A stretch of 64,000 nt of DNA, from contig NZ_JABBXA010000008.1 of NCBI RefSeq assembly GCF_014161445.1, forward strand, positions 62,001 to 126,000, written 5' to 3'. The notes under the pieces were generated by a model. That model was not told the origin of the DNA, searched no databases, and saw nothing but the letters and a program-made list of their open reading frames with translations. The translations under genes and the position numbers were made by a program. Positions 6,322 to 43,408 of this stretch are shown piece after piece; the first letter of the stretch is position 1, and every line of letters starts with the position of its first letter. This DNA comes from Microbispora sp. H13382. Lineage in GTDB: Bacteria; Actinomycetota; Actinomycetes; Streptosporangiales; Streptosporangiaceae.

Positions 6322-6323
6322 GA

Positions 6324-21956: not shown

Positions 21957-22922
21957 TCAGGCGGCGGCCTCCTTCAGCTCCACAGCGGAGCGGCGGGGTG
22001 CGCGGGGGACCGCGGGGCCGTATCCCAGCCGCAGGATCATCTGGATGTGCCCGCGCCGGTGGTGGGGGTCGCTGCGCCGGCGCATGTCGCGGAGGTCGAG
22101 CGGCTGGTTGAGAAACGACGCGGACACTCCGTGGACGGTGGCGGTCAGCAGCACACGTTGCAGAGCCTGGCCCGCGCGCAGCCAGTCGACGGGGCCGTCG
22201 CCCGCGGTGGTGAGCACCGCCAGCTGGGGGCGGGACTCGAAGTGGACCGGCCCGCGCCCCCTGTGCGTGCCGAAGTCCCGCACCGGCGCCGGGTCTTCGA
22301 TGCAGCCGGGCCCCTGCACATAGGACGGGAGGCCGTCGCGGGGCCGTCCGCTCGTCGTCCACTCCCGCAGCTCGGCCAGGTAGTCACCGTTCTTGGACAG
22401 CTCGTCGTCGGCGATGGCCACGTGCTCCAGCAGTTCGGCCGAGGCGCACCGGCCGAGCATGACCAGGCCGGCCCCCTCACAGGCGGCCGCTTGGCGCAGG
22501 TCGGCGAGCACGTGCTCGGGGATCCGCCGCTCGCTGAACGGTTCCCGGTTGGTCCGGCGCAGGCCGATGCAGTCATAGAGCTCGCGGGTCCGCGAGGGGG
22601 CCGGCCCGTACGGCGACACGCGCAGGGCGGCCAGGAGCCGGGGTTCCTCCCCGGTGTTCGGCAGCAGCCAGATCACCGGCCGGTAACCGGCGGTCCGTAC
22701 GGCGAGCCGGAGGTCGAACAGGGCGGCGCCGCAGCTGACGTGCAGCGAGCGCCCGCGCGGGTCGCTGACCCGCAGCCGCCGGTCGGGGTCGGCGAGCAAC
22801 TCGGCGAACTCTCCCCGGACCGCTTTGAGCCGCCAGGGCTGGGTGTTGAGCACCGAGGGCGCCTGTCCTGCGGCGGCGAGCAGCCGCTGGAAAGCGGGTT
22901 CTGTAGCGAGGGGAGACATCAC
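21957..22922 (-). CDS. Acg-type nitroreductase family protein
   Basis: 321 aa of the Acg/Rv2032 branch of the nitroreductase fold: APSVLNTQPWRL near the N-terminus (the family's SxxNxQPW motif), a central RRTNREPFSERRIP and a C-terminal MILRLGYGP. Mycobacterial Acg binds FMN tightly but lacks usual nitroreductase activity and is induced by hypoxia through DosR, where it is thought to store or sequester flavin. The DosR-like regulator in this window makes the same role likely. The start is GTG 22922 or ATG 22919; GGAAGG lies seven bases before the GTG. It follows the hibernation factor gene on the same strand, but a strong terminator separates them. Confidence 0.85.
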   Translation of the reverse strand: MMSPLATEPAFQRLLAAAGQAPSVLNTQPWRLKAVRGEFAELLADPDRRLRVSDPRGRSLHVSCGAALFDLRLAVRTAGYRPVIWLLPNTGEEPRLLAALRVSPYGPAPSRTRELYDCIGLRRTNREPFSERRIPEHVLADLRQAAACEGAGLVMLGRCASAELLEHVAIADDELSKNGDYLAELREWTTSGRPRDGLPSYVQGPGCIEDPAPVRDFGTHRGRGPVHFESRPQLAVLTTAGDGPVDWLRAGQALQRVLLTATVHGVSASFLNQPLDLRDMRRRSDPHHRRGHIQMILRLGYGPAVPRAPRRSAVELKEAAA

Positions 22923-22992
22923 GGTGCACCTTCCTCATGGAGGTCTTCTGCGGGGGCTCGCTGTCGTCACTCCGGGACACCTCGACCGAGTT

Positions 22993-23033
22993 GGCCGGGG
23001 GCCCGGCGCGCAGTGGGCGCCGGGCCCCCGGCC
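22993..23033 (-). terminator. 17-bp perfect hairpin terminator of the hibernation factor gene
   Basis: Arms 22993-23009 and 23017-23033 with a seven-base loop, starting four bases after the stop of the HPF-like gene. There is no T-run. It isolates that gene from the Acg-type gene downstream. Confidence 0.65.
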
Positions 23034-23037
23034 TGGT

Positions 23038-23355
23038 CTAACGGGTTCGCTTCCGGAGCCGTGCCAGCTCGGTCCGGAGCCTGTCCTGGACCTCGGCGAT
23101 GGCCCCGTCCATGGTCGCCGCGTCGGCGTGCGCGTGCAGCGGGCGGCCGTTGACGTCGATCACCGCCCGCGCGGTGCAACGGTCCTGGGGGGCCGGCCCG
23201 GGGGAGTAGGTCAGCGTGACCCGAGCCGCGAGGATCGGCCTGTCCGTGAAGCGCGCCAGCGCCGCGACGCGCTCGCGCGCCTCGGTGACCGCCTCGGCGG
23301 GGACCTTTCCGCTCGTCGCCACCACCACAGCTTCGGAATCGAATGTCGTGTTCAC
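23038..23355 (-). CDS. Short ribosome hibernation-promoting factor (HPF/YfiA domain)
   Basis: 105 aa with the beta-alpha-beta-beta-beta-alpha plan of the HPF/RaiA domain: VVVATSGKVPAEAVTEARERV, ILAARVTLTYSP, ARAVIDVNGRPLHAHADAATMDGAIAEV and DRLRTELARL. The C-terminal dimerisation tail of long HPF is missing, so it should act like a short HPF or RaiA that fills the mRNA/tRNA channel of idle ribosomes. The start is GTG 23355. The gene is divergent from adhE and shares with it a promoter that holds a DevR-like box. That fits ribosome storage under oxygen limitation. Confidence 0.82.
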   Translation of the reverse strand: MNTTFDSEAVVVATSGKVPAEAVTEARERVAALARFTDRPILAARVTLTYSPGPAPQDRCTARAVIDVNGRPLHAHADAATMDGAIAEVQDRLRTELARLRKRTR

Positions 23356-23492
23356 GGTGTCAGTCTTTTGGCCGTGCCGGTCCGGCGACAGGGCCTTTCG
23401 GGTCCGGGCCGGTGAGGACTTCCGTCGCCAGATCCAGGGACCGAGCACCCTTGCCGGGCCTCCCGCCGGGAGTCCGCCCGGCGTGGAACCGA

Positions 23493-23504
23493 TGACCTTG
23501 GTCC
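23493..23504. promoter_or_regulatory. DevR-like box between hpf and adhE
   Basis: TGACCTTGGTCC; its reverse complement is GGACCAAGGTCA, one base different from the box at 35462. It lies 111 bases before adhE and 137 before the HPF-like gene. A weaker related sequence, GGGCCTTTCGGGTCC, is at 23391-23405. Confidence 0.5.
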
Positions 23505-23603
23505 TCGGGGACGGGGTCCTTGTACGGCGGCCCGGGCGCGTCGTCCGCAGAAGGATGAAGGTGACAAGACAAGCTGGCCGACCGAGCCCACGAGGTGATC
23601 CAG

Positions 23604-26252
23604 ATGTCCGACTCCCCGACCGGAGCCGCACTGCCCGCCCCCCTGGCCGACCAGGTGCACGCCGCGATCGACACGCTGGTGACCGGCGCGCTGAAGGCAC
23701 TGACGGAGTACGAGTCCTTCACCCAGGAGCAGGTCGACCACATCGTCAAGAAGGCGTCCGTCGCCGCGCTGGACCGGCACGCCGCGCTCGCCCGCCTGGC
23801 GGTCGAGGAGACCGGCCGCGGCCTGTTCGAGGACAAGGCGGTCAAGAACATCTTCGCCTGCGAGCACGTGACCCACAGCATGGCCGGGCTCAGGACGGTC
23901 GGCGTCGTCTCCCGTGACGAGATCAACGGCATCGTCGAGATCGCCGATCCCGTCGGGGTGGTCTGCGGCGTCACGCCGGTCACCAACCCCACCTCGACCA
24001 CGATCTTCAAGGCGCTGCTGGCGCTGAAGACCCGCAATCCCATCGTGTTCGCGTTCCACCCGGCGGCGCAGCGCTGCAGCGCCGAGGCGGCCAGGATCGT
24101 CCGGGACGCCGCCGTCGCGGCCGGCGCGCCCGAGAACTGCGTCCAGTGGGTCGAGGAACCCTCCCTGGAGGCGACCGGCGCGCTGATGCGCCACGAGGGC
24201 GTGTCGGTCATCCTCGCCACCGGCGGGAACGCCATGGTCAGGGCCGCGTACTCGGCCGGCAAGCCGGCGCTGGGCGTGGGGGCGGGCAACGTCCCCGCCT
24301 ACATCGAGCGGACGGCCAAGCTGCGCCGGGCGGTGCACGACGTCGTGCTGTCCAAGACGTTCGACAACGGCATGATCTGCGCCTCGGAGCAGGCCGTCAT
24401 CATCGACGAGGACATCTACGACGCCGCGCTGGGCGAGTTCGCCCGGCTGCACGCGTACGTCGCGACGCCGGAGGAGAAGGCGAAGCTGGAGGAGTTCGTG
24501 TTCGGGGTGACGGCGCACGGCGCCTCCTGCTCCGAGGCGAGGCTCAACCCCGACGTCGTCGGGCGGACCCCGCACTGGATCGCCGGGCAGGCCGGATTCT
24601 CCGTGCCGCCGGACACCTCCCTGATCCTCGTGCCGGTGGACGAGGTCGGTCCGAACGAGCCGCTGACCAGGGAGAAGCTGTGCCCGGTGCTCGCGGTGCT
24701 GCGGGCCCGCACCCGGGAGGAGGGCCTGACCCTCGCCGAGCGCATGGTCGAGTTCGACGGCCTCGGGCACAGCGCCGTCATCCACACCGAGGACGCCGAC
24801 CTCGCCGAGAGGTACGGCATCAGGGTCAAGGCGGTGCGGGTGATCTGGAACGCCCCCGCCTCCCAGGGCGGCATCGGCGACATGTACAACGCCTTCCTGC
24901 CCTCGCTGACCCTGGGCTGTGGCAGCTACGGGCACAACTCGGTGTCCAACAACGTCTCGGCGGTCAACCTGATCAACATCAAGCGGATCGGGCGGCGCAA
25001 CAACAACCTGCAGTGGTTCAAGGTCCCCGCGAAGATCTACTTCGAGCCGAACGCGATCCGCTACCTGGCGGACATGCCGGACGTGCACCGCGTCACGATC
25101 GTGGCCGACGCCGTGATGACCCGGCTGGGGTACGTCGACCGCGTCACCGACGTGCTGCGGCGGCGCGGCGAGCGGGTGGCCCTGCAGATCATCGACGACG
25201 TGGAGCCCGAGCCGAGCGTGGCGACAGTCGACAAGGGCGCCGACCTCATGCGCGCCTTCGGGCCCGACACGATCGTCGCCCTCGGCGGCGGCTCGGTGAT
25301 GGACGCGGCCAAGGTCATGTGGCTGCGGTACGAGCACCCCGAGGTCGTCTTCGCGGACATGAAGGAGAAGTTCTTCGACATCCGCAAGCGCGCCTTCCGC
25401 TTCCCGGCCCTGGGCGAGCGCGCCCGCCTCGTGTGCGTGCCGACCACCTCGGGCACGGGCGCGGAGGTCACGCCGTTCGCCGTGATCACCGACACCGCGA
25501 CGGGCAAGAAGTATCCGCTGGCCGACTACGCGCTCACCCCCAGCGTCGCGATCGTGGACCCGGTCCTCGCCGCCGACCTGCCCAGGGTGGTCACCGCCGA
25601 CAGCGGCTTCGACGCCCTCACCCACGCCGTCGAGTCGTACGTCTCGGTGTACGCCAACGACTTCACCGACGGCCCGGCCCTGCACGCCATCAGGATCATC
25701 TTCCGGTACCTGGAGCGGGCGGTCACCCGCGGCGCCGCCGATCCGGAGGCCAGGGAGAAGATGCACAACGCCGGCACGATCGCCGGCATGGCCTTCGGCA
25801 ACGCCTTCCTCGGGATCGTGCACGCCATGTCCCACACGCTCGGTGCCACCTTCCACGTGGCCCACGGGCGTACGAACGCGATCCTGCTGCCGCACGTGAT
25901 CCGCTACAACGGCACCGTCCCGTCGAAGCTGTCGGGCTGGCCCAAGTATGAGGACTACCGCGCCCCTGAGCGGTTCCAGGAGATCGCCCAGACGCTGGGC
26001 CTGCCCGCGGCCACGCCGGCCGAGGGGGTCGAGTCGCTCGCGGCGGCCATCGAGCGCCTGCGCGACGCGGTCGGGATCGAGCGGTCCTTCCAGGACGTGG
26101 GCGTCGACGAGCAGGCGTTCCTGGACGCGCTCCCGCAGCAGGCGCTCAACGCGTACGAGGACCAGTGCGCGCCGGCCAACCCCCGGATGCCGATGCTGGA
26201 TGACATGCAGGCGCTGATGCGGGCCGCCTACTACGGGCGTTCCCCGAAATAG
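23604..26252 (+). CDS. adhE: Bifunctional acetaldehyde/alcohol dehydrogenase AdhE
   Basis: 882 aa, full length. Residues about 20-440 are the CoA-acylating aldehyde dehydrogenase with catalytic Cys259 in NGMICASEQ. Residues about 470-880 are the iron-dependent alcohol dehydrogenase with all four iron ligands at the spacing of E. coli AdhE: Asp670, His674, His740 and His754. GGGSVMDAAK is the NAD-binding loop. It turns acetyl-CoA into ethanol with two NADH, closing the fermentation begun by pyruvate formate-lyase further along. ATG 23604 is preceded by GAGGTGAT. AdhE is uncommon in aerobic actinomycetes; here it sits with other hypoxia genes and a DevR-like promoter site. Confidence 0.96.
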   Translation: MSDSPTGAALPAPLADQVHAAIDTLVTGALKALTEYESFTQEQVDHIVKKASVAALDRHAALARLAVEETGRGLFEDKAVKNIFACEHVTHSMAGLRTVGVVSRDEINGIVEIADPVGVVCGVTPVTNPTSTTIFKALLALKTRNPIVFAFHPAAQRCSAEAARIVRDAAVAAGAPENCVQWVEEPSLEATGALMRHEGVSVILATGGNAMVRAAYSAGKPALGVGAGNVPAYIERTAKLRRAVHDVVLSKTFDNGMICASEQAVIIDEDIYDAALGEFARLHAYVATPEEKAKLEEFVFGVTAHGASCSEARLNPDVVGRTPHWIAGQAGFSVPPDTSLILVPVDEVGPNEPLTREKLCPVLAVLRARTREEGLTLAERMVEFDGLGHSAVIHTEDADLAERYGIRVKAVRVIWNAPASQGGIGDMYNAFLPSLTLGCGSYGHNSVSNNVSAVNLINIKRIGRRNNNLQWFKVPAKIYFEPNAIRYLADMPDVHRVTIVADAVMTRLGYVDRVTDVLRRRGERVALQIIDDVEPEPSVATVDKGADLMRAFGPDTIVALGGGSVMDAAKVMWLRYEHPEVVFADMKEKFFDIRKRAFRFPALGERARLVCVPTTSGTGAEVTPFAVITDTATGKKYPLADYALTPSVAIVDPVLAADLPRVVTADSGFDALTHAVESYVSVYANDFTDGPALHAIRIIFRYLERAVTRGAADPEAREKMHNAGTIAGMAFGNAFLGIVHAMSHTLGATFHVAHGRTNAILLPHVIRYNGTVPSKLSGWPKYEDYRAPERFQEIAQTLGLPAATPAEGVESLAAAIERLRDAVGIERSFQDVGVDEQAFLDALPQQALNAYEDQCAPANPRMPMLDDMQALMRAAYYGRSPK

Positions 26253-26341: not shown

Positions 26342-26915
26342 ATGACCATGCTGCCCCCCCGACGTCTCCTGGCTCCGCGGCGAATACACCGAGGAGTGCT
26401 ACAGCTTCATCTACGTCCGTGCCACGCCCGAGCAGGTGGTCGCCCGTCTCGGCGGTCGATGGGAGGACTTCACGCCGGGCCCCTTCCCCGACGACCCGGA
26501 TCACTACCCGGGCCCCGGGGAGGCTCTCGGCGTCACCGCCATCGGCGACTGGACGTTCGTTTTCGACCCTGACTGGCTCGGCACCTGTGAAGACGTGATC
26601 ACCAGACTCTCCCAGGGCACTCGCCTCGTCTCCCAAGCCGCCCTCGGCATCAAGTGCATGGACTACTTCTACTGGTATGAGGACGGCGAGATCAGATTCT
26701 GCTTCGAAGCCGATGACGGATATGTGATGGAGACCCCGGCAGAACTCACGGACACGATGGCGGAGATCGACAGGCTCTACCCGTCGTTACCCCATCTCTA
26801 CGATGGGCCGGCCTTCCTGCTCGTCGAGCGTCTGACCGGGATCAGGGTGACGGAGCATCTGCTGAAGGGCTCCACGTTCATGTGGGGCGTCGTCCCACAA
26901 CCAACCACGTCGTGA
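26342..26915 (+). CDS. DUF6461-like protein, reading frame broken at a C7 run
   Basis: From GTG 26436 the frame gives 159 aa typical of the DUF6461 family ([50 protein letters not shown]). The same frame continues upstream to 26361 with good family sequence ([20 protein letters not shown]), but no start codon is in that frame. The proper starts, ATG 26342 or 26348, lie in another frame, and the two are separated by exactly seven cytosines (26354-26360). With six cytosines the gene would read [13 protein letters not shown]. It is therefore either a frameshift mutant, a slippage-controlled gene, or a sequencing error. The function of the family is unknown. Confidence 0.65.
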
Positions 26916-27060: not shown

Positions 27061-27702
27061 ATGATTCGGGTGTTCCTGGTTGACGACCATGAGGTCGTAC
27101 GGCGTGGTGTGGCGGCGTTGCTGGACGCCGAGGACGACATCGAGGTGGTGGGCGAGGCGGGGACGGCCGAGTCGGCTGTGGCCCGTATTCCGGCGCTGAA
27201 GCCGGATGTGGCGGTGCTCGACGTGCGCCTGCCCGACGGCGACGGGGTGGACGTCTGTCGTGAGGTCCGCTCGAAGGTGCCGGGCCTGGCCTGCCTGATG
27301 CTGACCTCCTACGCCGACGACGAGGCGTTGTTCAACGCGGTCATGGCCGGTGCGGCCGGATACGTGCTCAAGCAGATCCACGGCTCGGACCTGGTCGGGG
27401 CGGTGCGCACGGTGGCCGGCGGGCAGTCGCTGCTGGACCCGCAGACGACCGCGGCCATGCTGCACCGGCTGCGCGACCAGGCCACGAAGAAGGACCCGCT
27501 GGCCGCGCTGTCGGACCAGGAGCGGCAGATCCTGGAGCTGATCGGGGAGGGCCTGACCAACCGCCAGATCGGCGAGCGGATGTTCCTGGCGGAGAAGACG
27601 GTCAAGAACTACGTGTCCAACCTGCTGAGCAAGCTCGACATGCAGCGTCGCACCCAGGCCGCCGCGCTCGCCGCCCGCCTCAAGGCCGGTCGTCAGGACT
27701 GA
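27061..27702 (+). CDS. devR: DevR/DosR-type response regulator (NarL/LuxR family), orphan
   Basis: 213 aa. Receiver domain (1-120) with the acidic pocket Asp8/Asp9, phospho-acceptor Asp54, Thr82 and Lys104. LuxR-type helix-turn-helix (about 145-210) with Lys179, Lys182 and Asn183. All these positions are numbered exactly as in M. tuberculosis DosR, where Lys179, Lys182 and Asn183 contact DNA. The surrounding text is also very close ([26 protein letters not shown]). DosR and its Streptomyces counterpart OsdR switch on hypoxia genes. No DosS/OsdK-type kinase gene is in the window, so the sensor is elsewhere. The ATG at 27061 is used; upstream in-frame sequence is not protein-like. Confidence 0.92.
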
Positions 27703-27822: not shown

Positions 27823-28401
27823 TTACTTGAGGATCGGGAGGCGGCGGACCAGGGTGGTGTTGGTCCAGGTCGTGCCGAGTCCGAGGGTGGTGCCGGCGCC
27901 GGTGAGGGTCAGGCCGATCAGGACGATGGCGTAGACGATGTGCTCGTCCATGAGGGGGTTGGTGGTGAGGGGGAGTTCGGCGGCCCACATCAGGAGCAGG
28001 AGCAGGGTGCCGGTGGTGGCGGCGATGCGCATGCCGATGCCGAGGATGAGGGCGGTGCCGATGCCGGCCAGGCCGGTCATGAACAGCCAGTCGACCCAGG
28101 GTTGTCCGGCGAGGGTGTTGAACAGGCCGCCGAAGGTGTTGTCGGCGGTGCCCTTGAGGAAGCCGGTGGTGGGGCTGCCGCCGTTGATCCAGGCCTTGGC
28201 GGCGGGGGTGGCGAAGCCGAAGCCGAAGGTCTTGTCGAGGAAGGCCCACAGGAACACCCAGCCGATGGCGATGCGGGCGGCGGCCCAGGCGTAGCGGGCG
28301 GGGCCGGCGGTCGTCCGGGGCGCAGTGGCGGGGGTCGTCTGGGGCGCGGTGGTGGCGGCGTCGAGGTGGGTCCTCTGGTTGCGCCTCTCGATGGTGGCCA
28401 T
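27823..28401 (-). CDS. DoxX/DoxD-like membrane protein
   Basis: 192 aa with four predicted membrane helices (about 35-55, 105-125, 128-148, 155-175). RIAIGWVFLWAFLDKTFGFG and the following loop are typical of the DoxX family; DoxD members are the small subunit of thiosulfate:quinone oxidoreductase, while most bacterial DoxX proteins are of uncertain redox function. An unusual Thr/Ala/Pro-rich hydrophilic N-terminus of about 33 residues precedes the first helix. Its promoter region contains a DevR-like box, so it probably belongs to the hypoxia set. Confidence 0.82.
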   Translation of the reverse strand: MATIERRNQRTHLDAATTAPQTTPATAPRTTAGPARYAWAAARIAIGWVFLWAFLDKTFGFGFATPAAKAWINGGSPTTGFLKGTADNTFGGLFNTLAGQPWVDWLFMTGLAGIGTALILGIGMRIAATTGTLLLLLMWAAELPLTTNPLMDEHIVYAIVLIGLTLTGAGTTLGLGTTWTNTTLVRRLPILK

Positions 28402-28526
28402 GACCGGCCCCTTTCAACGTTTCGCGTCTTTGCTCTGTCTTTGACACCTCAAGCAAACCGCGATCACCGGCCCTGCCGCAGGAGCCGTACGGCACGCCGC
28501 GACCGCCCCGAAGTCCCGCGATCATG

Positions 28527-28538
28527 GGACTTTCGTCG
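28527..28538. promoter_or_regulatory. DevR-like box upstream of doxX
   Basis: GGACTTTCGTCG, 9 of 12 matches to GGACCTTGGTCC, 126 bases before the doxX start. It is part of a larger symmetric segment (28510-28537) that resembles 35385-35413. Confidence 0.4.
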
Positions 28539-28573
28539 TACGTCCGGCCGTACGGCGCGTACTGGTGCGCCGG

Positions 28574-28859: not shown

Positions 28860-29681
28860 TCACCGCCACGCCTGGCGCGCGGCCCATCGCTCCACCGTCG
28901 TCGTCCCCCGGTGGAGCCACCCCTCCGGGATCGGCGGTGGTGCGGCCGCTGCGGCCGGGGCGTAGAACCCGGCGATTCCTTCGGCCGCCTCCCGGCCCAC
29001 GACCGGCGTGATGAGCCGGGCGTACTCGGCGGGCTCGACCCACAGGTAGCGCACCGGCCTTCCGGCGGCGGAGGCCGCGGCGGCGGCGAGCCGGTCACCG
29101 GTGACCTCCTCCGGGCCCGTCACGACGAGCCGCGCGGGCGGCTCGGCCCCGGCCAACGCCTCACCGACGGCCTCCGCCAGGTCGTCGAGCGACGACCACG
29201 GCACGGGGGTCTCCGCCGGCAGCGGATAGACCAGCTCACCGTGCTCGCGGACGCGCCGGGCCGACCAGGGCTGCACCAGGTTCTCCAGGTACGGCCCCGC
29301 GGGACCGATCACGGACGCGGCCTCCAGTCGCGCGGGCAGATCCCGGGCGAACAGGACCCGGGCGTCGACGAACGGGACACCCACCGGGTCCGGCGGCAGC
29401 GGCATCCCCGGATTGAACACCACCCGCGACACGGCGGCCTCGCAGAGAGCGGCGAGCACCGACGCCGCGTGCCGCAGGGCGATCTCGCCGAACACCTGCG
29501 GAAGCTGCACGACGACCGCGTCGGCGCCCTTGTACGCCGTGGCGAGGGAGGCGGCGTCGGCCAGATCGGCGGAGGCGGAGTTCAGCGGCCGGACCTGGTG
29601 CCCGAGCGCGCGCAGCCTCCGTACGACGGGAGAGCCCTGGGTTCCGGTCGCGCCGTGCACGGCGACGATCATCTTCGTCAT
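28860..29681 (-). CDS. NmrA-like NAD(P)-binding protein
   Basis: 273 aa with an atypical short-chain dehydrogenase fold. The dinucleotide-binding loop VHGATGTQGSPVVRRL is at residues 8-23 (GxxGxxG). The body lacks a YxxxK catalytic pair, as in NmrA-type redox sensors and quinone-reductase-like proteins. It is transcribed away from an HxlR regulator gene 66 bases apart, an arrangement seen often for HxlR and its target. The role is likely NAD(P)H sensing or reduction of a small quinone-like compound, but the substrate is unknown. Confidence 0.82.
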   Translation of the reverse strand: MTKMIVAVHGATGTQGSPVVRRLRALGHQVRPLNSASADLADAASLATAYKGADAVVVQLPQVFGEIALRHAASVLAALCEAAVSRVVFNPGMPLPPDPVGVPFVDARVLFARDLPARLEAASVIGPAGPYLENLVQPWSARRVREHGELVYPLPAETPVPWSSLDDLAEAVGEALAGAEPPARLVVTGPEEVTGDRLAAAAASAAGRPVRYLWVEPAEYARLITPVVGREAAEGIAGFYAPAAAAAPPPIPEGWLHRGTTTVERWAARQAWR

Positions 29682-29730
29682 GCGGCCGACGCTAGAGCCG
29701 TTGCTTCATCCTTTGAAGTAGGCACCTTTC

Positions 29731-29745
29731 CTGTAGTAACTACAG
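29731..29745. promoter_or_regulatory. HxlR operator candidate CTGTAGTAACTACAG
   Basis: Perfect 15-base palindrome ending two bases before the ATG of the HxlR gene and 50 bases from the divergent NmrA-like gene. The position fits autorepression and control of the divergent target. Confidence 0.65.
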
Positions 29746-29747
29746 CT

Positions 29748-30086
29748 ATGGAAACAAGCCAGGCACCGCGGCCGGTCACGCCCGAAGAATGCGTCGTCAC
29801 GCGGACGCTGACGTTCGTCGGCAGCAGGTGGACGCCGCTGGTCATCTGGCACCTGCTCGACGGCACCAAGCGATACGGCGAGCTTCGTCAGGCGCTGCCC
29901 GGGATCAGCCCCAAGACGCTGGCCGACCGCCTGCAGGCCCTGGAGGAGCGCGGACTGGTCACGCGCACGGTGCATCCGGAAAAACCGCCGCGCGTGGAGT
30001 ACGCCCTGACGCCCCGGGGTTTCGCACTCGGGAACATCCTCGACGACGTCGCGCGGTGGGGCGAAGAGTGGGAGGACGCGGACTGA
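29748..30086 (+). CDS. HxlR family transcriptional regulator
   Basis: 112 aa winged helix protein: ECVVTRTLTFVGSRWTPLVI, YGELRQALPGISPKTLADRLQALEERGLV and YALTPRGFAL are the HxlR signature. It has a single Cys (Cys15) near the N-terminus, the position of the redox-sensing Cys in HypR/QorR-type regulators. The ATG at 29748 directly follows a perfect palindrome. The divergent NmrA-like gene is the probable target. It may respond to quinones or other electrophiles. Confidence 0.88.
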   Translation: METSQAPRPVTPEECVVTRTLTFVGSRWTPLVIWHLLDGTKRYGELRQALPGISPKTLADRLQALEERGLVTRTVHPEKPPRVEYALTPRGFALGNILDDVARWGEEWEDAD

Positions 30087-35401: not shown

Positions 35402-35413
35402 GGACCAAAGTCA
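35402..35413. promoter_or_regulatory. DevR-like box, pflB-proximal
   Basis: GGACCAAAGTCA, 10 of 12 to GGACCAAGGTCC, 82 bases before pflB. The upstream flank GAAGTC-N2-CGATCAT resembles that at the doxX promoter. Confidence 0.5.
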
Positions 35414-35461
35414 CCCGCCCGGTTCGGTGGATAAGTGAGGGTCTTCTGGGTACCGCCGGAA

Positions 35462-35473
35462 GGACCAAGGTCC
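35462..35473. promoter_or_regulatory. DevR-like box, narK-proximal
   Basis: GGACCAAGGTCC, arms GGACC/GGTCC around AA, 65 bases before narK. It matches the core GGAC-N4-GTCC of the mycobacterial DosR consensus. Confidence 0.6.
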
Positions 35474-35537
35474 CTGACGTCCCCGCCGTCCCACCGGGAG
35501 GGTAGGGCGGAAGATCCTCTCCCCCCGGAGGAACGCG

Positions 35538-36758
35538 ATGACAGTCGGCTTGGCAGCCGTCCAGGGAACACGCAGGGGCGGCCGGGCGGTCGCGCTGGTG
35601 CTGGCGACGGCAGGGTTTGCGGTGAACTTCTGGGCGTGGGCGCTGCTCAGCCCGCTCAGCGCGACATACAAGGAACTGCTCGGCCTCACTCCGTTCGAGG
35701 CGTCGGTCCTGGTCGCGATCCCGGTCATCGTCGGGTCGCTGGGGCGGATCGTGCTCGGCGCGCTGACCGACCGGTACGGCGGGCGGCTGATGTTCGCGGT
35801 GGCGAGCATGCTCGGCGTGATCCCGGTGGTCTTCCTCGCCTTCGCCGAGAGCTATCCGGCGTTGCTGGCCGGGGGGCTCGTCCTGGGCCTGACGGGGGCG
35901 ACCTTCGCGATCGGCGTGCCGTTCGTCAACGCCTGGTTCCCGCCGGAGCGCCGCGGGCTGGCCCTGGGCGTATTCGGGATGGGCAACATCGGCACGGCGA
36001 TCTCCGGCTTCGCCACTCCCTGGCTCGCGGACCGGTTCGGCCGGCCGGTGCCGTTCTTCGTGGTCGCGGTCGCGCTGGTGGTCGTCGGGCTGGCGTTCCT
36101 GGCGTTCGGCCGGGAGGCGCCCGGTGCCCGTCGCGCGACCGAGCCGTTCCTCGCCAGGTTCCTGGCCGCGGGGCGGTTGCGCGTCACCCGCGAACTGGCC
36201 GCGATGTACGCGCTGACCTTCGGCGGGTTCGTGGCGTTCGGCGCCTACCTGCCGCTGTATCTGAAGGCGGTCTACGGGCTGTCCACGGCCGACGCGGCCG
36301 CGCGGGCGGCCGGGTTCGTCGTGCTGGCCACGCTCGCCCGTCCGGTCGGCGGCTGGCTCGCGGACCGCTTCGGCGGCGAGATCGTGCTCTCCGGGGCACT
36401 CGCCGTGGCGGTGGTGTGCGCGGTCGCCGTGTCGTTCGCCCCGCCGATGCCACTGGCGACGGCCGGCTTCCTGGCCATGGCGGCCTCGCTCGGCCTGGGC
36501 AACGGTGCGATCTTCGCGCTGCTCGGCCGGGCCGTGCCGGCGCACGCGATCGGCAGCGCGACCGGCGTGGTCGGCGCGGTCGGCGGTCTCGGCGGATTCC
36601 TGCCGCCGATCGTCATGGGCCTCATCTACCAGGCCACCGGTTCGTACGCCATCGGGCTCATGCTGCTGGCGGCCGTCGCGGCGGCGGCGCTGGTCTACTG
36701 CTGGTTCGTCCTGCGGCCCTCCGGGACCGCCCCCCTGACCCAGGGAGAGGGAATCTGA
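35538..36758 (+). CDS. narK: MFS nitrate/nitrite transporter
   Basis: 406 aa, 12 predicted membrane helices. NFWAWALLSPL in helix 1, GRIVLGALTDRYGGR between helices 2 and 3, and FGMGNIGTAISGF in helix 5 are NarK/NNP family signatures (the last is a nitrate signature with conserved Gly residues). It brings nitrate in and/or exports nitrite for the reductase encoded next. GGAGG stands seven bases before the ATG. Its TGA overlaps the narG ATG. Confidence 0.94.
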   Translation: MTVGLAAVQGTRRGGRAVALVLATAGFAVNFWAWALLSPLSATYKELLGLTPFEASVLVAIPVIVGSLGRIVLGALTDRYGGRLMFAVASMLGVIPVVFLAFAESYPALLAGGLVLGLTGATFAIGVPFVNAWFPPERRGLALGVFGMGNIGTAISGFATPWLADRFGRPVPFFVVAVALVVVGLAFLAFGREAPGARRATEPFLARFLAAGRLRVTRELAAMYALTFGGFVAFGAYLPLYLKAVYGLSTADAAARAAGFVVLATLARPVGGWLADRFGGEIVLSGALAVAVVCAVAVSFAPPMPLATAGFLAMAASLGLGNGAIFALLGRAVPAHAIGSATGVVGAVGGLGGFLPPIVMGLIYQATGSYAIGLMLLAAVAAAALVYCWFVLRPSGTAPLTQGEGI

Positions 36759-39700
36759 TGTCGAGGATCGACGGGCCGGTCAGCGACGCCCTGCTCGGAC
36801 TGGGACGGCACCTGCGCCGCGGCGAGGTGTCGCCGGACCTGCGCACGCTCCACCAGGTCGGCGGGCGGCAGGGTGACGTGTTCTACCGCGACCGGTGGAG
36901 CCACGACAAGGTGGTGCGCTCGACCCACGGGGTGAACTGCACCGGGTCGTGCTCCTGGAAGGTGTACGTCAAGGACGGCATCATCACCTGGGAGGCGCAG
37001 CAGACCGACTACCCCAGCGTGGGCGACGACCGGCCCGAATACGAGCCGCGGGGCTGCCCGCGCGGTGCGGCCTTCTCCTGGTACACCTACTCGCCGACCC
37101 GGGTGCGCTACCCGTACGCCCGGGGCGTGCTGGTGGAGATGTACCGCGAGGCGAAGGCGCGGCTGGGCGACCCGGTGGCGGCCTGGGCCGAGATCACGAC
37201 CGACCCCGTGAAGCGCCGCCGCTACCAGGAGGTCCGGGGCAGGGGCGGGCTCGTCCGCGTCTCCTGGGACGAGGCCGCCGAGATCGTCGCCGCCGCGCAC
37301 GTGCACACGATCAAGACCTACGGCCCCGACCGGATCGCCGGGTTCTCGCCGATTCCGGCCATGTCGATGGTCTCCCACGCCGTGGGCGCGCGGTTCGTCT
37401 CGCTGCTCGGCGGCACGATGCTGTCGTTCTACGACTGGTACGCCGACCTGCCGGTGGCCTCGCCCCAGGTCTTCGGCGACCAGACCGACGTGCCGGAGTC
37501 GGCGGACTGGTGGGACGCCTCCTACCTGATGCTCTGGGGTTCCAACGTGCCGGTCACCCGCACCCCCGACGCGCACTACATGGCCGAGGCCCGCTACCGG
37601 GGGCAGAAGGTCGTCGTCATGGCCCCGGACTACAACGACGCCGCCAAGTTCGCCGACGAATGGCTGGCCCCGCACCCCGGCACGGACGGCGCGCTGGCGA
37701 TGGCGATGGGCCACGTGATCCTCCGGGAGTTCTTCGTCGACCGCGAGACGCCCCGCTTCCTCGACTACGTCAAGCGCTACACCGACCTGCCCTTCCTGGT
37801 GCGGCTGCGCGAGCACGACGGCGCGTACGTGCCGGACAAGTTCCTCACCTCGGCCGACCTGGGCGAGCAGGGGGAAGAGGCCGCGTTCAAGACCGTGCTG
37901 CTCGACGCGCGGGACGGCGAACCGGTCGTGCCCGGAGGCTCGCTCGGCTTCCGGTTCTCCGCCGAGGGCGAGGGCCGCTGGAACCTCGACCTCGGCGACG
38001 TCGACCCGCTGCTCACCCTGCTCGCGGACGGCGAGGCCGTCCCGGTCTCGCTGCCGCGCTTCGACGCTCCCGGCGAGGCGGTGATGCGCCGCGGCGTGCC
38101 CGCCCGCCGGGTGAACGGTCACCTGGTCACCACGGTCCTCGACCTGATGCTCGCGCAGTACGGCGTGGCCCGCGACGGGCTGCCGGGGGAGTGGCCGGCC
38201 GGGTACGACGACCCGGCGCAGCCGTACACCCCCGCCTGGCAGGAGGCGATCACCTCGGTGCCGGCGGACGCGGCGGCGCGGATCGCCCGGGAGTTCGCCC
38301 GCAACGCCGAGGAGTCCGGCGGCCGATCGATGATCATCTTGGGTGCGGGGACGAACCACTGGTTCCACTCCGACACGATGTACCGGGCGTTCCTCGCGCT
38401 GGTCACGCTGACCGGCTGTCAGGGCGTCAACGGCGGCGGCTGGGCGCACTACGTCGGGCAGGAGAAGTGCCGCCCGGTCACCGGCTGGGCGCAGCTGGCC
38501 TCCGGCCTCGACTGGTCCCGCCCGCCCCGGCAGATGATCGGCACGGCGTACTGGTATCTCAACACGGGGCAGTGGCGCTACGACGAGCACACCGCCGACG
38601 TCGTGGCCTCACCGCTCGGCGGCGGAACGTTCGCGGGAAGGACCAGCGCCGACCTGCTCGCCCAGTCCGCCCGGATGGGGTGGATGCCGTCCTATCCCAC
38701 CTTCGGCCGCAACCCCCTCGACCTCGCCGACGAGGCCGAGCGCGCCGGCCGGGAGGCGGGCCCGTACGTCGTGGAGGAGGTGCGTGCGGGCCGCCTCGGC
38801 TTCGCCTGTGAGGACCCCGACGCGCCGGAGAACTGGCCGCGGGTGCTCACCGTGTGGCGGGCGAACCTGCTCGGCTCCTCGGCGAAGGGCAACGAGTTCT
38901 TCCTGCGGCACCTGCTCGGCGCCTCCGACGCGGTGCGGGCCGAGGAGAACGGCCCGGACCGGCGGCCCGGCGACGTGACCTGGCGGGACGAGGCGCCCCG
39001 GGGCAAGCTCGACCTGCTGCTGTCGCTCGACTTCCGGATGACCTCGACGACGCTGTTCTCCGACATCGTGCTCCCGGCGGCCACCTGGTACGAGAAGCAC
39101 GACCTGTCGTCCACCGACATGCACCCGTTCGTGCACGCCTTCACCCCGGCCATCGACCCGCCCTGGCAGACCCGCACCGACTTCGCCGCCTTCCACGCCA
39201 TCGCGCGGGCGTTCAGCGCGCTGGCCCGCGACCATCTCGGCGTACGCCGGGACGTCGTCGCCGTGCCGCTGCTGCACGACACGCCGGACGAGCTGGCCAG
39301 CCCGCACGGCCGGGTGCGCGACTGGCGGGAAACCGGTGAGGAGCCGGTGCCGGGCCGTACGTTCCCGAAGATCGTGGTGGTCGAGCGGGACTACGGTGCG
39401 ATCGCCGACAAGCTGGCCGCCCTCGGTCCGCTCGCCGAGCGCCTGGGCGCCACGACGAAGGGCGTGACGTTCGACGTCGCGGCCGAGGTGGAACGGCTGG
39501 GCAGGGTCAACGGGACCGTACGCGGGGGAGCGGCCGACGGCCGGCCTTCGCTGGCGACGGACGTCGCGATGTGCGAGACGATCCTCGCGCTGTCCGGCAC
39601 CACCAACGGCAGGCTGGCGGCCCAGGGGTTCGAGACCCTGGCCCGCCGTACGGGGACCGACCTCGGCGGCCTGGCCGACGAGCATCGCCGGATCACCTTC

Positions 39701-40402
39701 GCCGACACGCAGGCGCGGCCGACCCCGGTGATCACCTCGCCGGAGTGGTCGGGCAGCGAGACCGGAGGCAGGCGCTACTCCGCCTTCACCATCAACGTCG
39801 AGCACCGCAAGCCCTGGCACACCCTCACCGGCCGCCAGCACTTCTACCTCGACCACGACTGGATGCATGAGGCCGGCGAGGCGCTGCCCGTCTACCGGCC
39901 GCCGCTCAACACGGCCGCCCTCGCGGCGGGGCCGGGCGGCGAGGACGGCATCGTGGTGCGCTACCTCACCCCGCACTCCAAGTGGTCGATCCACTCCGAG
40001 TATCAGGACAACCTGCTGATGCTGACGCTGTCGCGGGGCGGCCCGACGATCTGGATGAGCCCGGACGACGCGGCGCGGGCCGGCATCCGCGACAACGACT
40101 GGGTCGAGGCGGTCAACCGGAACGGCGTGGTGGTCGCGCGGGCCGTGGTCTCCCACCGCATGCCCGCCGGGACCGTGTACATGTACCACGCGCAGGAGCG
40201 CGTGGTGGACGTGCCCAAGAGCGAGACCTCCGGCAGGCGCGGCGGCATCCACAACAGCCTCACCCGCCTGCTGATCAAGCCGACCCACCTGATCGGCGGG
40301 TACGCGCAGCTCAGCTTCGCCTTCAACTATCTGGGGCCGACGGGCCACCAGCGCGACGAGGTCACGGTGATCCGCCGCCGTGCCCAGGAGGTGGATTACT
40401 GA
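36758..40402 (+). CDS. narG: Respiratory nitrate reductase alpha subunit
   Basis: 1214 aa. Ligands of the first Fe-S cluster are His57, Cys61, Cys65 and Cys100, and the molybdenum-binding Asp226 is in SFYDWYADLP; all are shifted a few residues from E. coli NarG (50, 54, 58, 93, 222). The C-terminal molybdopterin-binding part (FNYLGPTGHQRDEV) is complete. It reduces nitrate to nitrite on the cytoplasmic face with bis-MGD cofactor, receiving electrons through NarH and NarI. The start overlaps narK (TGATG). Confidence 0.97.
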   Translation: MSRIDGPVSDALLGLGRHLRRGEVSPDLRTLHQVGGRQGDVFYRDRWSHDKVVRSTHGVNCTGSCSWKVYVKDGIITWEAQQTDYPSVGDDRPEYEPRGCPRGAAFSWYTYSPTRVRYPYARGVLVEMYREAKARLGDPVAAWAEITTDPVKRRRYQEVRGRGGLVRVSWDEAAEIVAAAHVHTIKTYGPDRIAGFSPIPAMSMVSHAVGARFVSLLGGTMLSFYDWYADLPVASPQVFGDQTDVPESADWWDASYLMLWGSNVPVTRTPDAHYMAEARYRGQKVVVMAPDYNDAAKFADEWLAPHPGTDGALAMAMGHVILREFFVDRETPRFLDYVKRYTDLPFLVRLREHDGAYVPDKFLTSADLGEQGEEAAFKTVLLDARDGEPVVPGGSLGFRFSAEGEGRWNLDLGDVDPLLTLLADGEAVPVSLPRFDAPGEAVMRRGVPARRVNGHLVTTVLDLMLAQYGVARDGLPGEWPAGYDDPAQPYTPAWQEAITSVPADAAARIAREFARNAEESGGRSMIILGAGTNHWFHSDTMYRAFLALVTLTGCQGVNGGGWAHYVGQEKCRPVTGWAQLASGLDWSRPPRQMIGTAYWYLNTGQWRYDEHTADVVASPLGGGTFAGRTSADLLAQSARMGWMPSYPTFGRNPLDLADEAERAGREAGPYVVEEVRAGRLGFACEDPDAPENWPRVLTVWRANLLGSSAKGNEFFLRHLLGASDAVRAEENGPDRRPGDVTWRDEAPRGKLDLLLSLDFRMTSTTLFSDIVLPAATWYEKHDLSSTDMHPFVHAFTPAIDPPWQTRTDFAAFHAIARAFSALARDHLGVRRDVVAVPLLHDTPDELASPHGRVRDWRETGEEPVPGRTFPKIVVVERDYGAIADKLAALGPLAERLGATTKGVTFDVAAEVERLGRVNGTVRGGAADGRPSLATDVAMCETILALSGTTNGRLAAQGFETLARRTGTDLGGLADEHRRITFADTQARPTPVITSPEWSGSETGGRRYSAFTINVEHRKPWHTLTGRQHFYLDHDWMHEAGEALPVYRPPLNTAALAAGPGGEDGIVVRYLTPHSKWSIHSEYQDNLLMLTLSRGGPTIWMSPDDAARAGIRDNDWVEAVNRNGVVVARAVVSHRMPAGTVYMYHAQERVVDVPKSETSGRRGGIHNSLTRLLIKPTHLIGGYAQLSFAFNYLGPTGHQRDEVTVIRRRAQEVDY

Positions 40403-42057
40403 TGACGCGCGTGATGGCTCAGCTGGCGATGGTGATGAACCTGGACAAGTGCATCGGCTGCCACACCTGTTCGGTCACCTGCAAGCAGGCGTGGACCAAC
40501 CGGGCCGGCACCGAGTACGTCTGGTTCAACAACGTGGAGACCCGGCCCGGCCAGGGCTACCCCCGCACGTACGAGGACCAGGACAGGTGGAAGGGCGGCT
40601 GGGAGCTCAACCGGCGCGGCCGGCTCCAGCTCAAAGCCGGCGGGCGGCTGAAGAAGCTGCTGACCATCTTCGCCAACCCGCTGATGCCGTCCATCGGCGA
40701 CTACTACGAGCCCTGGACCTACGACTACGACCGACTGTTCTCGGCGCCGGTCACCGAGGACACCCCGGTCGCCCGGCCCCGCTCGCTCATCACCGGCGAA
40801 CCGACGAAGATCAAATGGAGCGCCAACTGGGACGACGACCTCGCGGGCGCACCCGAGCTGGCTCCGGCCGATCCCGTGCTGCGCAAGGTGTCCGACCAGG
40901 TGAAGCTCGAGTTCGAGCGGGCCTTCATGTTCTACCTGCCGCGCATCTGCGAGCACTGCCTCAACCCGTCGTGCGTCGCCTCCTGCCCCTCCGGCGCGAT
41001 GTACAAGCGCTCGGAGGACGGCATCGTGCTGGTGGACCAGGACCGCTGCCGCGGCTGGCGGATGTGCGTCACCGGCTGCCCGTACAAGAAGGTGTACTTC
41101 AACCACCGCACCGGCAAGGCCGAGAAGTGCACCTTCTGCTACCCGAGGGTCGAGGTCGGCATCCCGACCGTGTGCTCGGAGACCTGCGTCGGCCGGCTGC
41201 GCTACATCGGGCTGATCCTCTACGACGCCGACCGCGTCGCCGAGGCGGCGTCCACCCCGGACGAGAAGGCGCTGTACGAGGCGCAGAAGAGCGTCATGCT
41301 CGACCCCCGCGACCCCGAAGTGGTCGCCGCGGCCCGGGCCTCCGGCATACCGGAGGACTGGCTGGAGGCGGCGAGGAACTCCCCGATCCACAAGCTGATC
41401 TTCGACTACGGGGTGGCGCTGCCGCTGCATCCCGAGTATCGGACCATGCCGATGGTCTGGTACATCCCGCCCCTGTCGCCCGTGGTCGACGTGCTGCGCG
41501 AGACCGGCCACGACGGGGAGCGGGCCGGCAACCTGTTCGGCGCCATCGACGCGCTGCGCATCCCGATCGGCTACCTGGCCGAGCTGTTCACCGCCGGCGA
41601 CCCCGAGCCCGTACGCGCCGTCCTGCGCCGCCTGGCCGCGATGCGGTCGTACATGCGGGGGATCAACCTCGCCGGGGAGCGCGAGGAGTCGATCCCGGCC
41701 GCCGTCGGGCTCAAGGGCGACCAGATCGAGGAGATGTACCGCCTGCTGGCCATCGCCCCCTACGGCGAGCGGTACGTCATCCCCAAGGCGCACGCCGAGC
41801 AGGGCGCCCGGCTGGAGGAGCTCGCCACCGAATGCAGTCTCGACTACGACGGCGGCCCCGGCATGGGCGGCCCCTTCGGCGAGGCGTCCGGCACGCCCGC
41901 CCCCGTGGCGGTGGAGAACTTCCACGCCCTCAAGGAGCGACAGGCCACCGACGACCTGGACCGGGCGGACGAGCTGCGCGGCCGGGTCAACCTGCTCAAC
42001 TGGGACGGCAAGGGCACTCCGGACGGGCTGTTCCCGAAGCGGAAGGACAAGTCGTGA
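40402..42057 (+). CDS. narH: Respiratory nitrate reductase beta subunit
   Basis: 551 aa with four Cys clusters: CIGCHTCSVTCK near the N-terminus, CEHCLNPSCVASCPSG, CRGWRMCVTGCPYKK (Trp replaces one Cys, as in NarH, giving a [3Fe-4S] cluster) and KCTFCYPR...CSETC. It passes electrons from NarI hemes to NarG. It overlaps narG by one base (TGATG). The length exceeds E. coli NarH (512) by about 40 residues, mainly in a C-terminal extension. Confidence 0.97.
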   Translation: MTRVMAQLAMVMNLDKCIGCHTCSVTCKQAWTNRAGTEYVWFNNVETRPGQGYPRTYEDQDRWKGGWELNRRGRLQLKAGGRLKKLLTIFANPLMPSIGDYYEPWTYDYDRLFSAPVTEDTPVARPRSLITGEPTKIKWSANWDDDLAGAPELAPADPVLRKVSDQVKLEFERAFMFYLPRICEHCLNPSCVASCPSGAMYKRSEDGIVLVDQDRCRGWRMCVTGCPYKKVYFNHRTGKAEKCTFCYPRVEVGIPTVCSETCVGRLRYIGLILYDADRVAEAASTPDEKALYEAQKSVMLDPRDPEVVAAARASGIPEDWLEAARNSPIHKLIFDYGVALPLHPEYRTMPMVWYIPPLSPVVDVLRETGHDGERAGNLFGAIDALRIPIGYLAELFTAGDPEPVRAVLRRLAAMRSYMRGINLAGEREESIPAAVGLKGDQIEEMYRLLAIAPYGERYVIPKAHAEQGARLEELATECSLDYDGGPGMGGPFGEASGTPAPVAVENFHALKERQATDDLDRADELRGRVNLLNWDGKGTPDGLFPKRKDKS

Positions 42058-42659
42058 GCGACCGCACGGTTCACCTGACGGCCTCGGTGCTGCTGTCCTA
42101 TCCGGACGAGCGGCTCGTCGAGGCGCTGCCGCTGCTGAACGCCGCCGTGGCCGGGCTGGCGCCGGGCGAGCCCGCCAGGCGGCTGGCCGCCTTCCTCGGC
42201 CACGTGGCCGCGACCCCGCCGCACGAGCTGGCCGAGCACTACGTGGCGACCTTCGACCTCAAGCGCCGCTGCTGCCCTTATCTGACCTACTACACCTACG
42301 GCGACACCCGGCGGCGCGGGATGGCCCTGCTGCGCTTCACGCAGGCCTACCGGACGGCGGGGTTCGAGGTCACCGGGGAGCTGCCCGACCACCTGGGCGT
42401 GGTGTGCGAGCTGTCCGGCCGCGGCGCCACCGAGCAGGCCGTACGGCTGCTGCGCGAACACCGTCCCGGACTGGAAACGCTGCTGGGTGCCCTGCGGGAG
42501 GAGCGCTCACCGTACGCCGACGTCGTCGCGGCGGTGCTGGCGACGCTCCCCCCGCCCACCGAGCGGGAGCGCCAGGCCGCCCTGCGCCTGGCGGAGGAGG
42601 GTCCGCCGGCCGAGGAGGTCGGCCTGGAGCCGTACGGGCCTGTGGGAGGTGTCCGGTGA
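42054..42659 (+). CDS. narJ: Nitrate reductase assembly chaperone
   Basis: 201 aa of the NarJ/TorD family: LLSYPDE at the N-terminus, HYVATFDLKRRCCPYLTYYTYGDTRRRG in the middle and PDHLGVVCEL. It binds apo-NarG and guides cofactor insertion and membrane attachment. GTG start overlapping the narH stop by four bases (GTGA). GTG is supported by the operon arrangement and by the family N-terminus. Confidence 0.94.
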   Translation: MSDRTVHLTASVLLSYPDERLVEALPLLNAAVAGLAPGEPARRLAAFLGHVAATPPHELAEHYVATFDLKRRCCPYLTYYTYGDTRRRGMALLRFTQAYRTAGFEVTGELPDHLGVVCELSGRGATEQAVRLLREHRPGLETLLGALREERSPYADVVAAVLATLPPPTERERQAALRLAEEGPPAEEVGLEPYGPVGGVR

Positions 42660-43408
42660 GCGCGCTCGACGTGACCCTGTGGGTGGTGGCGCCCTACGTC
42701 GCGCTGACGGTCTTCGTGCTCGGCCACGTCTGGCGCTACCGCTACGACAAGTTCGGCTGGACGACCCGGTCGTCACAGATGTACGAGTCACGGCTGCTGC
42801 GGATCGGCAGCCCGCTGTTCCACTTCGGGATCCTGGTCGTGCTCCTCGGCCACATCGGCGGCCTGGTGATCCCCAAGACCTGGACAGAGGCGGCCGGAGT
42901 GAGCGAGCACGCCTACCATCTCGCCGCGGTCGCGCTCGGCACGGTCGCCGGAGTCTGCACCGTCGCGGGCCTGGCCATCCTGATCTACCGTCGCCGCACG
43001 GTCGGCCCGGTCTTCACCGCCACCACCCGCAACGACAAGCTGATGTACGCGCTGCTCGCCCTGACCATCGCGCTCGGGCTGGCCGCCACCGTCGTCGCCA
43101 ACATCCTCGGCGGCGGCTACGACTACCGCACCACCATCTCGCCCTGGTTCCGGTCGGTCTTCTATCTCCAGCCGCAGGGCGAGTCGATGGCGGCCGCGCC
43201 GATCCTGTTCAAGCTGCACGCGCTCAGCGCGCTCGTCCTGTTCGCCGTCTGGCCGTTCACCCGGCTGGTGCACATGCTCACCGCACCCGTCGGATACCTC
43301 ACCCGTCCGTACATCGTCTACCGCAGCCGGGACGACCGGCGCGGCTCGCGTCCGCCCCGCCGAGGCTGGGAGCCCGCGGCCGTCCCTGACGACTCGCGTC
43401 GACGGTGA
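42656..43408 (+). CDS. narI: Respiratory nitrate reductase gamma subunit (cytochrome b)
   Basis: 250 aa, five membrane helices. Heme ligands are expected at the His of FVLGHVW, FHFGIL, LLGHIG and at late His residues (KLHALS, RLVHML). It oxidises menaquinol and sends electrons to NarH. GTG start overlaps the narJ stop (GTGA). Its TGA is directly followed by the TCA stop complement of the convergent monooxygenase gene, leaving no spacer. Confidence 0.95.
   Translation: MSALDVTLWVVAPYVALTVFVLGHVWRYRYDKFGWTTRSSQMYESRLLRIGSPLFHFGILVVLLGHIGGLVIPKTWTEAAGVSEHAYHLAAVALGTVAGVCTVAGLAILIYRRRTVGPVFTATTRNDKLMYALLALTIALGLAATVVANILGGGYDYRTTISPWFRSVFYLQPQGESMAAAPILFKLHALSALVLFAVWPFTRLVHMLTAPVGYLTRPYIVYRSRDDRRGSRPPRRGWEPAAVPDDSRRR

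Follow-up and report, generated by a model that had tools for sequence, protein, structure and literature searches.

The window analysed here is a stretch of 64,000 nucleotides from Microbispora sp. H13382, corresponding to bases 62001-126000 of contig 69 in a source genome of 8.7 Mb and 70 contigs. Within it, codon-model gene calling and profile scans delimit an island of 21.5 kb (21957..43408) in which genes for pyruvate formate-lyase (PFL), a bifunctional alcohol dehydrogenase and nitrate respiration lie together with the gene of a DosR/DevR-type response regulator (27061-27702, + strand). Judged from sequence comparison, the region is most probably a hypoxia island controlled by DosR (DevR), one of the clusters that make up a dispersed DosR regulon. 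The fermentation genes encode PflB (33047-35320, - strand; TIGR01255, 1198 bits against a cut-off of 994), its activating enzyme PflA (32190-33050, - strand; TIGR02493, 305 bits, cut-off 232) and the acetaldehyde-CoA/alcohol dehydrogenase AdhE (23595-26252, + strand; NF010378, 1363 bits, cut-off 951). Sequence hallmarks of a functional PFL are present, as PflB retains the paired catalytic cysteines and the RVSGYA glycyl loop of 1h16 and PflA retains the CxxxCxxC motif of 3c8f. The respiratory nitrate reductase is encoded on the + strand in one operon comprising narG (36758-40402; TIGR01580, 1619 bits), narH (40402-42057; TIGR01660, 740 bits), narJ (42054-42659; TIGR00684, 103 bits) and narI (42656-43408; TIGR00351, 205 bits), and all four products pass the curated cut-offs. 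The NarK-family nitrate/nitrite transporter (35538-36758, + strand) gives a clear match to TIGR00886, though one below the curated family cut-off (203 versus 312 bits).

The remaining members include an Acg-family FMN-binding oxidoreductase (acg; 21957-22922, - strand; NF047509, 287 bits, cut-off 199) and an S30AE hibernation-factor-type protein of 96 aa (hpf; 23038-23328, - strand; PF02482, 31.1 bits, cut-off 23.7), a short protein to which NCBIfam profiles gave no match. A DoxX-like membrane protein (27823-28401, - strand) is named from its homologues only, several of which carry the source names DoxX family or thiosulfate dehydrogenase [quinone], and two Pfam scans gave no match to it. The flavodoxin (Flavodoxin_5; 30275-30781, + strand; PF12724, 78.6 bits) has an NmrA-HxlR gene pair (28860-30086) directly upstream in the window. 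The initial annotation had grouped the named genes within about 21 kb, and gene calls and profile scans recovered every one of them in place. It had overlooked a DUF6461 gene (26436-26915), the NmrA (28860-29681) and HxlR (29748-30086) genes, a CPBP gene that also lies inside the island, and gene 27 (31755-32072, - strand), which is located behind pflA and encodes 105 aa. A database search with gene 27 returned 15 proteins, and the named sources among them were Microbispora, Sphaerimonospora and Planomonospora.

The regulator has full-length receiver and LuxR domains and aligns end to end over residues 1-211 with Mycobacterium tuberculosis DevR (3c3w, E = 2.8e-80), its closest solved protein, while the next-best solved-structure match is VraR (9e-45). 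The 12 aligned residues of the DNA recognition helix, which we take to be the DNA contact helix of DosR, show no change relative to 3c3w. On these alignments the island regulator is a DosR/DevR orthologue, and the type assigned to it in the initial annotation is borne out. A genome-wide search using DevR found no second orthologue; full-length LuxR-type paralogues reach at most 44% identity to DevR, with higher values only in short single-domain matches. No kinase adjoins devR, which has the DUF6461 and doxX genes as neighbours. When places with both GAF_2 and HisKA_3 matches were taken as kinase candidates and genes were called around three such places, two GAF-GAF-HisKA_3-HATPase kinases of 566 and 573 aa were found on other contigs. 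The first GAF domain of both matches DevS/DosT crystal sequences (E ~1e-51), and in both kinases an HPPM histidine and an LYL tyrosine, presumably the haem His149 and Tyr171, are aligned with DevS/DosT. The third candidate (contig 66) showed no resemblance to DevS by eye and was set aside.

Predicted sites resembling GGGAC-N4-GTCCC precede several of the island genes. The box GGGACCTTCGGCCC before gene 27 (32108-32121, reverse strand) has one mismatch and scores 15.5 with an OsdR matrix, and single mismatches are also found in GGGACCAAAGTCAC at the pflBA promoter (35401-35414) and in AGGACCAAGGTCCC at the narK-nar promoter (35461-35474). The doxX promoter holds tandem sites (28504-28517 and 28526-28539, the latter with two mismatches), and the divergent adhE/hpf promoter holds ATGACCTTGGTCCT (23492-23505, three mismatches) together with two weak sites in the hpf-adhE interval (23415-23428 and 23437-23450, two mismatches each). 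In alignments that include the window, the gene-27 footprint GGGGACCTTCGGCCCTCCCC is identical in 4/4 genus sequences and the pflB footprint TGACTTTGGTCC (reverse strand) occurs in 7/7, while the adhE/hpf footprint GACCTTGGTCCT is kept in four of five, the fifth differing by one substitution. Likewise, two neighbouring blocks of the doxX promoter are kept in 5/5 aligned sequences and CGACGGAAGTCCTC at the weak 23415 site in 3/3, and the 14 bases of the narK site are the same in three of four sequences and degenerate in the congener G194. A mycobacterial-type 20-bp consensus, TTSGGGACTWWAGTCCCSAA, gave no match in the window at up to three mismatches.

The DosR box is over-represented at the target promoters by matrix, dyad, shuffle and spacer tests. 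With a matrix built from the 26 published Streptomyces coelicolor OsdR sites (PMC5069765 Table 1), scores of at least 5 were obtained at 10 of 2668 intergenic positions of the island versus 57 of 62966 positions elsewhere, where the comparison set consisted of the rest of the window and 320 kb of other genome stretches. This comparison is conservative, as 7 of the 16 stretches used contain a site of the related pattern RGGMCYNNRGKCCY. The top score falls at 32107, before gene 27, and the second-highest, 12.1, lies outside the island. Since the island sites had already been seen by the analyst, an unseeded test was run on palindromic dyads with half-sites of 5 and spacers of 0-8. It covered the regions upstream of nine types of island gene in 32 loci, the window among them, with 190 upstream regions from the window's own genome as background. 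GGGAC-N4-GTCCC ranked first of 2836 dyads, being present in 50/94 regions (19/37 from the genus and 31/57 from other genera) versus 2/190 in the background; with two mismatches allowed, the counts were 30/37, 47/57 and 37/190, respectively. Same-genus regions are not independent, so that the P value of the dyad is not literal and more weight belongs to the count from other genera. Shuffled half-sites gave a mean of 1.8 and a maximum of 7 (188 draws), and alternative spacers were found in 0 to 9 of the 94 regions. In a scan of 80 PflB loci over the 350 nt before the match start, a span that may enter the gene by up to ~60 nt, the box was present in 15 of 36 actinobacterial and 0 of 44 other loci, these labels being taken from record titles and the other loci being unmatched for base composition. 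Permuted half-sites in the 36 actinobacterial loci gave a mean of 1.8 and a maximum of 5.

DevR orthologues were found in 182/200 family genomes and PflB in 33/200 (in 7/10 of the genus genomes sampled). Neighbourhoods around PflB were compared in 32 loci, seven from the genus (window included) and 25 from other genera, with linkage identity cuts of 40 to 70% set per gene and several loci ending at contig ends. Conservation of gene order in relatives, which the initial annotation had named as a check, is seen in the congener G187, where PflB-PflA-gene 27-CPBP-flavodoxin-DoxX-DevR-AdhE-HPF-Acg follow one another in the order and orientation of the window; in G139 the order is the same, but CPBP and flavodoxin are missing. 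In 4/7 genus loci the nar operon is no more than 11 kb from pflB, and narG (E of 1e-200 or better) was found in 8/15 genus genomes. Among the six congener loci compared, gene 27 stands behind pflA in three and the CPBP gene is present in two (three at a looser coverage cut), and DUF6461, NmrA and HxlR are present in none.

Island content, in reshuffled order, recurs in other genera of the family. The 25 PflB loci from other genera include DevR in 9, Acg in 10, AdhE in 5, DoxX in 8, NarG in 3 and NarK in 3, and at least one of DevR, Acg, AdhE, DoxX and NarG was present in 18 and at least two in 9; the island's own HPF occurs in one, and its flavodoxin and gene 27 in none. Linkage of DevR to PflB in 9/25 loci corresponds to P = 7.9e-15 under a simple model of 1.5 copies per 8.5 Mb and independent loci, and control genes (CPBP, FAD monooxygenase, NmrA, HxlR, DUF6461, gene 15 and SAM methyltransferase) were linked in 0/25. 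Outside the family, S. globisporus (L008) carries AdhE, NarK, Acg, PflBA, DevR, DoxX and HPF together (identity for NarK, Acg, DoxX and HPF is only 37-43%), and a Frankiaceae metagenome-assembled genome (L031) carries DoxX, flavodoxin, Acg, AdhE, PflBA and DevR together. In other actinobacterial loci PflBA stands alone.

The box also marks genes far from the island. The pattern GGGACBWWVGKCCY, drawn up after inspection of the island sites, gives 27 strand matches that fall at 21 distinct places genome-wide, and its reversed control gives 12 strand matches. Two of these places are the island's own; 10 of the other 19 are intergenic by gene calls and 8 lie inside genes, and leaving out a 51-aa call at L169 raises the intergenic count to 11/19 (P = 2.8e-5 with a coding fraction of 0.845). 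Ten of the 11 intergenic places lie before, or at the very start of, dormancy-type genes, while the eleventh (contig 3) has its nearest gene more than 850 bases away. The genes behind these boxes encode a hydrogenase iron-sulfur protein, a CBS-BON protein opposite a universal-stress-like one, a PPOX-type protein, RtcB opposite a CBS protein, a P-type ATPase, a universal-stress protein, hemerythrin opposite NorB and three DoxX paralogues, where the DoxX paralogues and the universal-stress-like gene L087:12941 were named from first residues and not by profile. The hemerythrin box is at C69:140230 (L183), about 14 kb to the right of the window, between the hemerythrin gene and a gene for a NorB-type nitric oxide reductase. 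CBS proteins (Hrp1), RtcB and CtpF are, like Acg, among the DosR targets of M. tuberculosis, and matching families stand behind boxes elsewhere in the Microbispora genome. Universal-stress and nitrate genes are likewise given as mycobacterial DosR targets (PMC5069765). Given that no kinase stands beside DevR and that the box occurs at stress genes genome-wide, the island would be one cluster of a dispersed regulon, and the earlier description of it as centred on its regulator is not supported.

A second dormancy cluster was observed on contig C10 (L087:985-13810), where it adjoins the first DevS-type kinase. It comprises group-3-like NiFe hydrogenase, OsmC-like, universal-stress-like and CBS-BON genes; the hydrogenase subunits are of sulfhydrogenase type, all under cut-offs, and DosR-type boxes lie at 48765 and at 35842, the latter at the start of the hydrogenase-side iron-sulfur gene.

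To our knowledge, the mycobacterial DosR regulon has no pyruvate formate-lyase or AdhE branch. The main text of a paper on DosRS of M. abscessus contains none of the words formate, adhE, alcohol dehydrogenase or ferment (PMC10034137). The Microbispora island shares with the M. tuberculosis DosR/DevR regulon an orthologous regulator and the same box type; the mycobacterial targets include nitrate transport and universal-stress proteins (PMC5069765). A comparable cluster has been described before in Streptomyces. Eight predicted sites are reported to control 20 of the 22 genes SCO0198-SCO0219 in S. coelicolor, in a report whose main text makes no mention of PFL (PMC5069765). The co-expressed OsdR regulon listed for S. 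lividans contains an alcohol dehydrogenase (SCO0199), a thiosulfate dehydrogenase (quinone) (SCO0201), OsdK, OsdR, a PFL-activating protein fragment marked as a putative pseudogene, a putative pyruvate formate-lyase (SCO0206), PPDK, a nitrate/nitrite transporter, a nitroreductase and NarGHJI (PMC6302529). The initial annotation had presented the clustering and the added fermentation branch as new, a claim that falls because the S. lividans paper, the one found in the library searched to link PFL with OsdR, gives both a precedent, with PFL included in S. lividans and without it in the S. coelicolor report.

As listed, the OsdR (SCO0204) region SCO0197-SCO0219 and the Microbispora island both cluster a DosR-type regulator, a nitroreductase, an alcohol dehydrogenase, PFL, a nitrate/nitrite transporter and NarGHJI. 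The name thiosulfate dehydrogenase (quinone) in that region is also given to relatives of the Microbispora DoxX-like protein, and a box of the same type, AGGGACCTTCGGCCCC, is reported before Streptomyces narG2 (PMC5069765). However, the Streptomyces block is described with osdK beside osdR and with universal-stress genes and PPDK inside it, whereas the Microbispora island has no universal-stress protein or PPDK among the proteins scanned, has its candidate kinases on other contigs, and carries flavodoxin and gene 27 in addition. For Streptomyces, the list gives a 'zinc-deprived' alcohol dehydrogenase and an activase reduced to an N-terminal fragment, while Microbispora has a bifunctional AdhE and an intact PflA. 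Thus, the clustered gene set of the Streptomyces OsdR core is found here with a different type of alcohol dehydrogenase, and its adjacent kinase and universal-stress genes are not. The traits that distinguish this well-supported new example from its precedent are the intact PFL system, AdhE and the distant sensor. Compared with the FNR-run PFL-AdhE-nitrate programme of other bacteria, the same kinds of enzymes would be switched on without oxygen (PMC4601167), although the regulator and sensor in Microbispora are of DosR/DevS type and FocA was not found in the genome.

The comparative evidence places pyruvate formate-lyase and AdhE in the predicted DosR regulon of part of the Streptosporangiaceae, and a dormancy regulator studied mainly in mycobacteria would therefore also command fermentation. 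The conserved sites, the intact PFL and a host that is not a pathogen make it testable whether DosR supports metabolism without oxygen or survival alone. S. lividans, with an activase gene given as a putative pseudogene (PMC6302529), answers this question less well.

From gene identities, orthology, the sites and their conservation, linkage and the presence of the kinases and a formate dehydrogenase, we infer a chain of signal, phosphotransfer, binding, induction and fluxes, which may extend to control of acg, devR and flavodoxin. A fall in oxygen, or a rise in nitric oxide (NO), would cause one or both of the DevS/DosT-type haem kinases to phosphorylate DevR, and phosphorylated DevR would bind the GGGAC-N4-GTCCC-type sites and switch on pflBA, gene 27, adhE/hpf, doxX and narK-narGHJI. 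PflB, once activated by PflA, would cleave pyruvate without producing NADH; AdhE would convert acetyl-CoA to ethanol with reoxidation of NADH, and NarK with NarGHJI would provide nitrate respiration. The genome also encodes a selenocysteine formate dehydrogenase, whose catalytic subunit (C14:80708-83854) scores 1907 bits against a cut-off of 1400 and has an in-frame TGA in the motif ARIUHSS, with SelA at C14:73060 on the same contig; this enzyme could pass the electrons of PFL-derived formate into the quinone pool for Nar. We would suggest, only tentatively, that control by DosR, in place of FNR, gives a spore-forming soil actinomycete, presumed to be an aerobe, a complete anaerobic programme of the enteric style, in which PFL yields formate, AdhE yields ethanol, and formate is reoxidised by the selenocysteine formate dehydrogenase with electrons passing to NarGHI, with gene 27 as an undescribed PFL helper.

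Several observations weigh against DosR control of the island as a whole, or against this full programme. Only the gene-27, pflBA and narK sites lie within one mismatch; two mismatches are found at doxX and three in the conserved adhE/hpf site. For acg (184 nt of upstream sequence) and devR, the window holds no site within two mismatches, so that a box is not present at every proposed member, and the flavodoxin site is degenerate; boxes within one mismatch do precede flavodoxin in G187 and G065, and in other genera they precede acg in 6/11 cases and devR in 5/8. Within the genus, sites within one mismatch were counted for pflB in 1/7, adhE in 3/5, acg in 1/4, devR in 0/2 and hpf in 1/3. The co-control proposed by the initial annotation consequently holds, at the level of conserved predicted sites, for pflBA, narK, gene 27, doxX and adhE/hpf, and not for acg, devR or flavodoxin. 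Window-wide, GGGAC-N4-GTCCC at one mismatch is not enriched (7 found versus 10.3 expected), and it takes intergenic position, the matrix of published OsdR sites and comparison with relatives to reveal the motif; the pattern RGGMCYNNRGKCCY is even depleted genome-wide, with 59 sites versus 106 for its reversed control. DevR is near-universal in the family and PflB is not, 16 of the 25 other-genus PflB loci are without DevR in the stretch compared, and narG is missing from 7/15 genus genomes, which makes nitrate respiration optional. The beta-like neighbour subunit of the formate dehydrogenase reaches 184 of the 335 bits of its cut-off, and the box nearest to the formate dehydrogenase has two mismatches, none lying within one. 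As this enzyme has no clear box and a genome search for FocA found none, the step from formate to nitrate is conjectural.

The same evidence bears on other explanations. It is possible, though we would not call it probable, that the DosR island is real and serves mainly to balance nitrate, nitrite and NO and to time development, PFL and AdhE acting as redox valves that aid survival and not as a source of energy for anaerobic growth, a proposal compatible with DosR control. It would fit the optional narG of the genus, the DosR-type box between the hemerythrin and NorB-type genes on the same contig, the hibernation-type factor inside the island, which suggests arrest, and the Streptomyces OsdR regulon, which has been linked to the balance of NO and nitrite and to a delay in development (PMC6302529). 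However, intact PflB, PflA, AdhE and NarGHJI together with formate dehydrogenase make up an energy and redox set.

It appears improbable that these genes are neighbours by accident, or through a general habit of anaerobic genes to cluster, and are separately controlled by regulators such as FNR/Crp, Rex or NarL-type proteins. Neighbours do differ in part from genome to genome, nar is present or absent as a unit, and acg and devR have no sites; against this, GGGAC-N4-GTCCC tops all dyads tested (no search by name was made for FNR, Rex or NarL sites), with most other leaders being its variants, and DevR linkage is far above chance. The box is also a conserved block in congeners, though start-codon-proximal sequence is conserved there too. 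Recent acquisition of the anaerobic island as a single block is given a very low probability as well. The patchy presence of PflB in the family and genus and of narG in the genus would be expected under such an event, but the island G+C of 0.69-0.74 lies inside the range of the remaining window, PflB shares 93-98% identity with its congeneric counterparts and 78-87% with those of other family genera, and the island content is found reshuffled across genera. DosR control of the island as part of a dispersed regulon is the reading that we prefer.

No Rfam RNA reached threshold in the window and no tRNA was found there, and the repeats detected across the island are weak matches, chiefly in coding sequence. 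Outside the island, two of the seven one-mismatch sites of the window (13749 and 16318) were rejected, as they are part of a repeated element that lies amid glycoside hydrolase genes. This element, GGCGGTGTCCTCGTCGTGGGGAC-N-GTGGTCACCGCC, occurs at window positions 13700-13800 and 16270-16370 and resembles the DosR box by chance. Genes for plant-polysaccharide enzymes (arabinofuranosidase-CBM2, GH43 and GH10-CBM2-esterase) flank the island at window positions 4776-19285 and 51835-54159.

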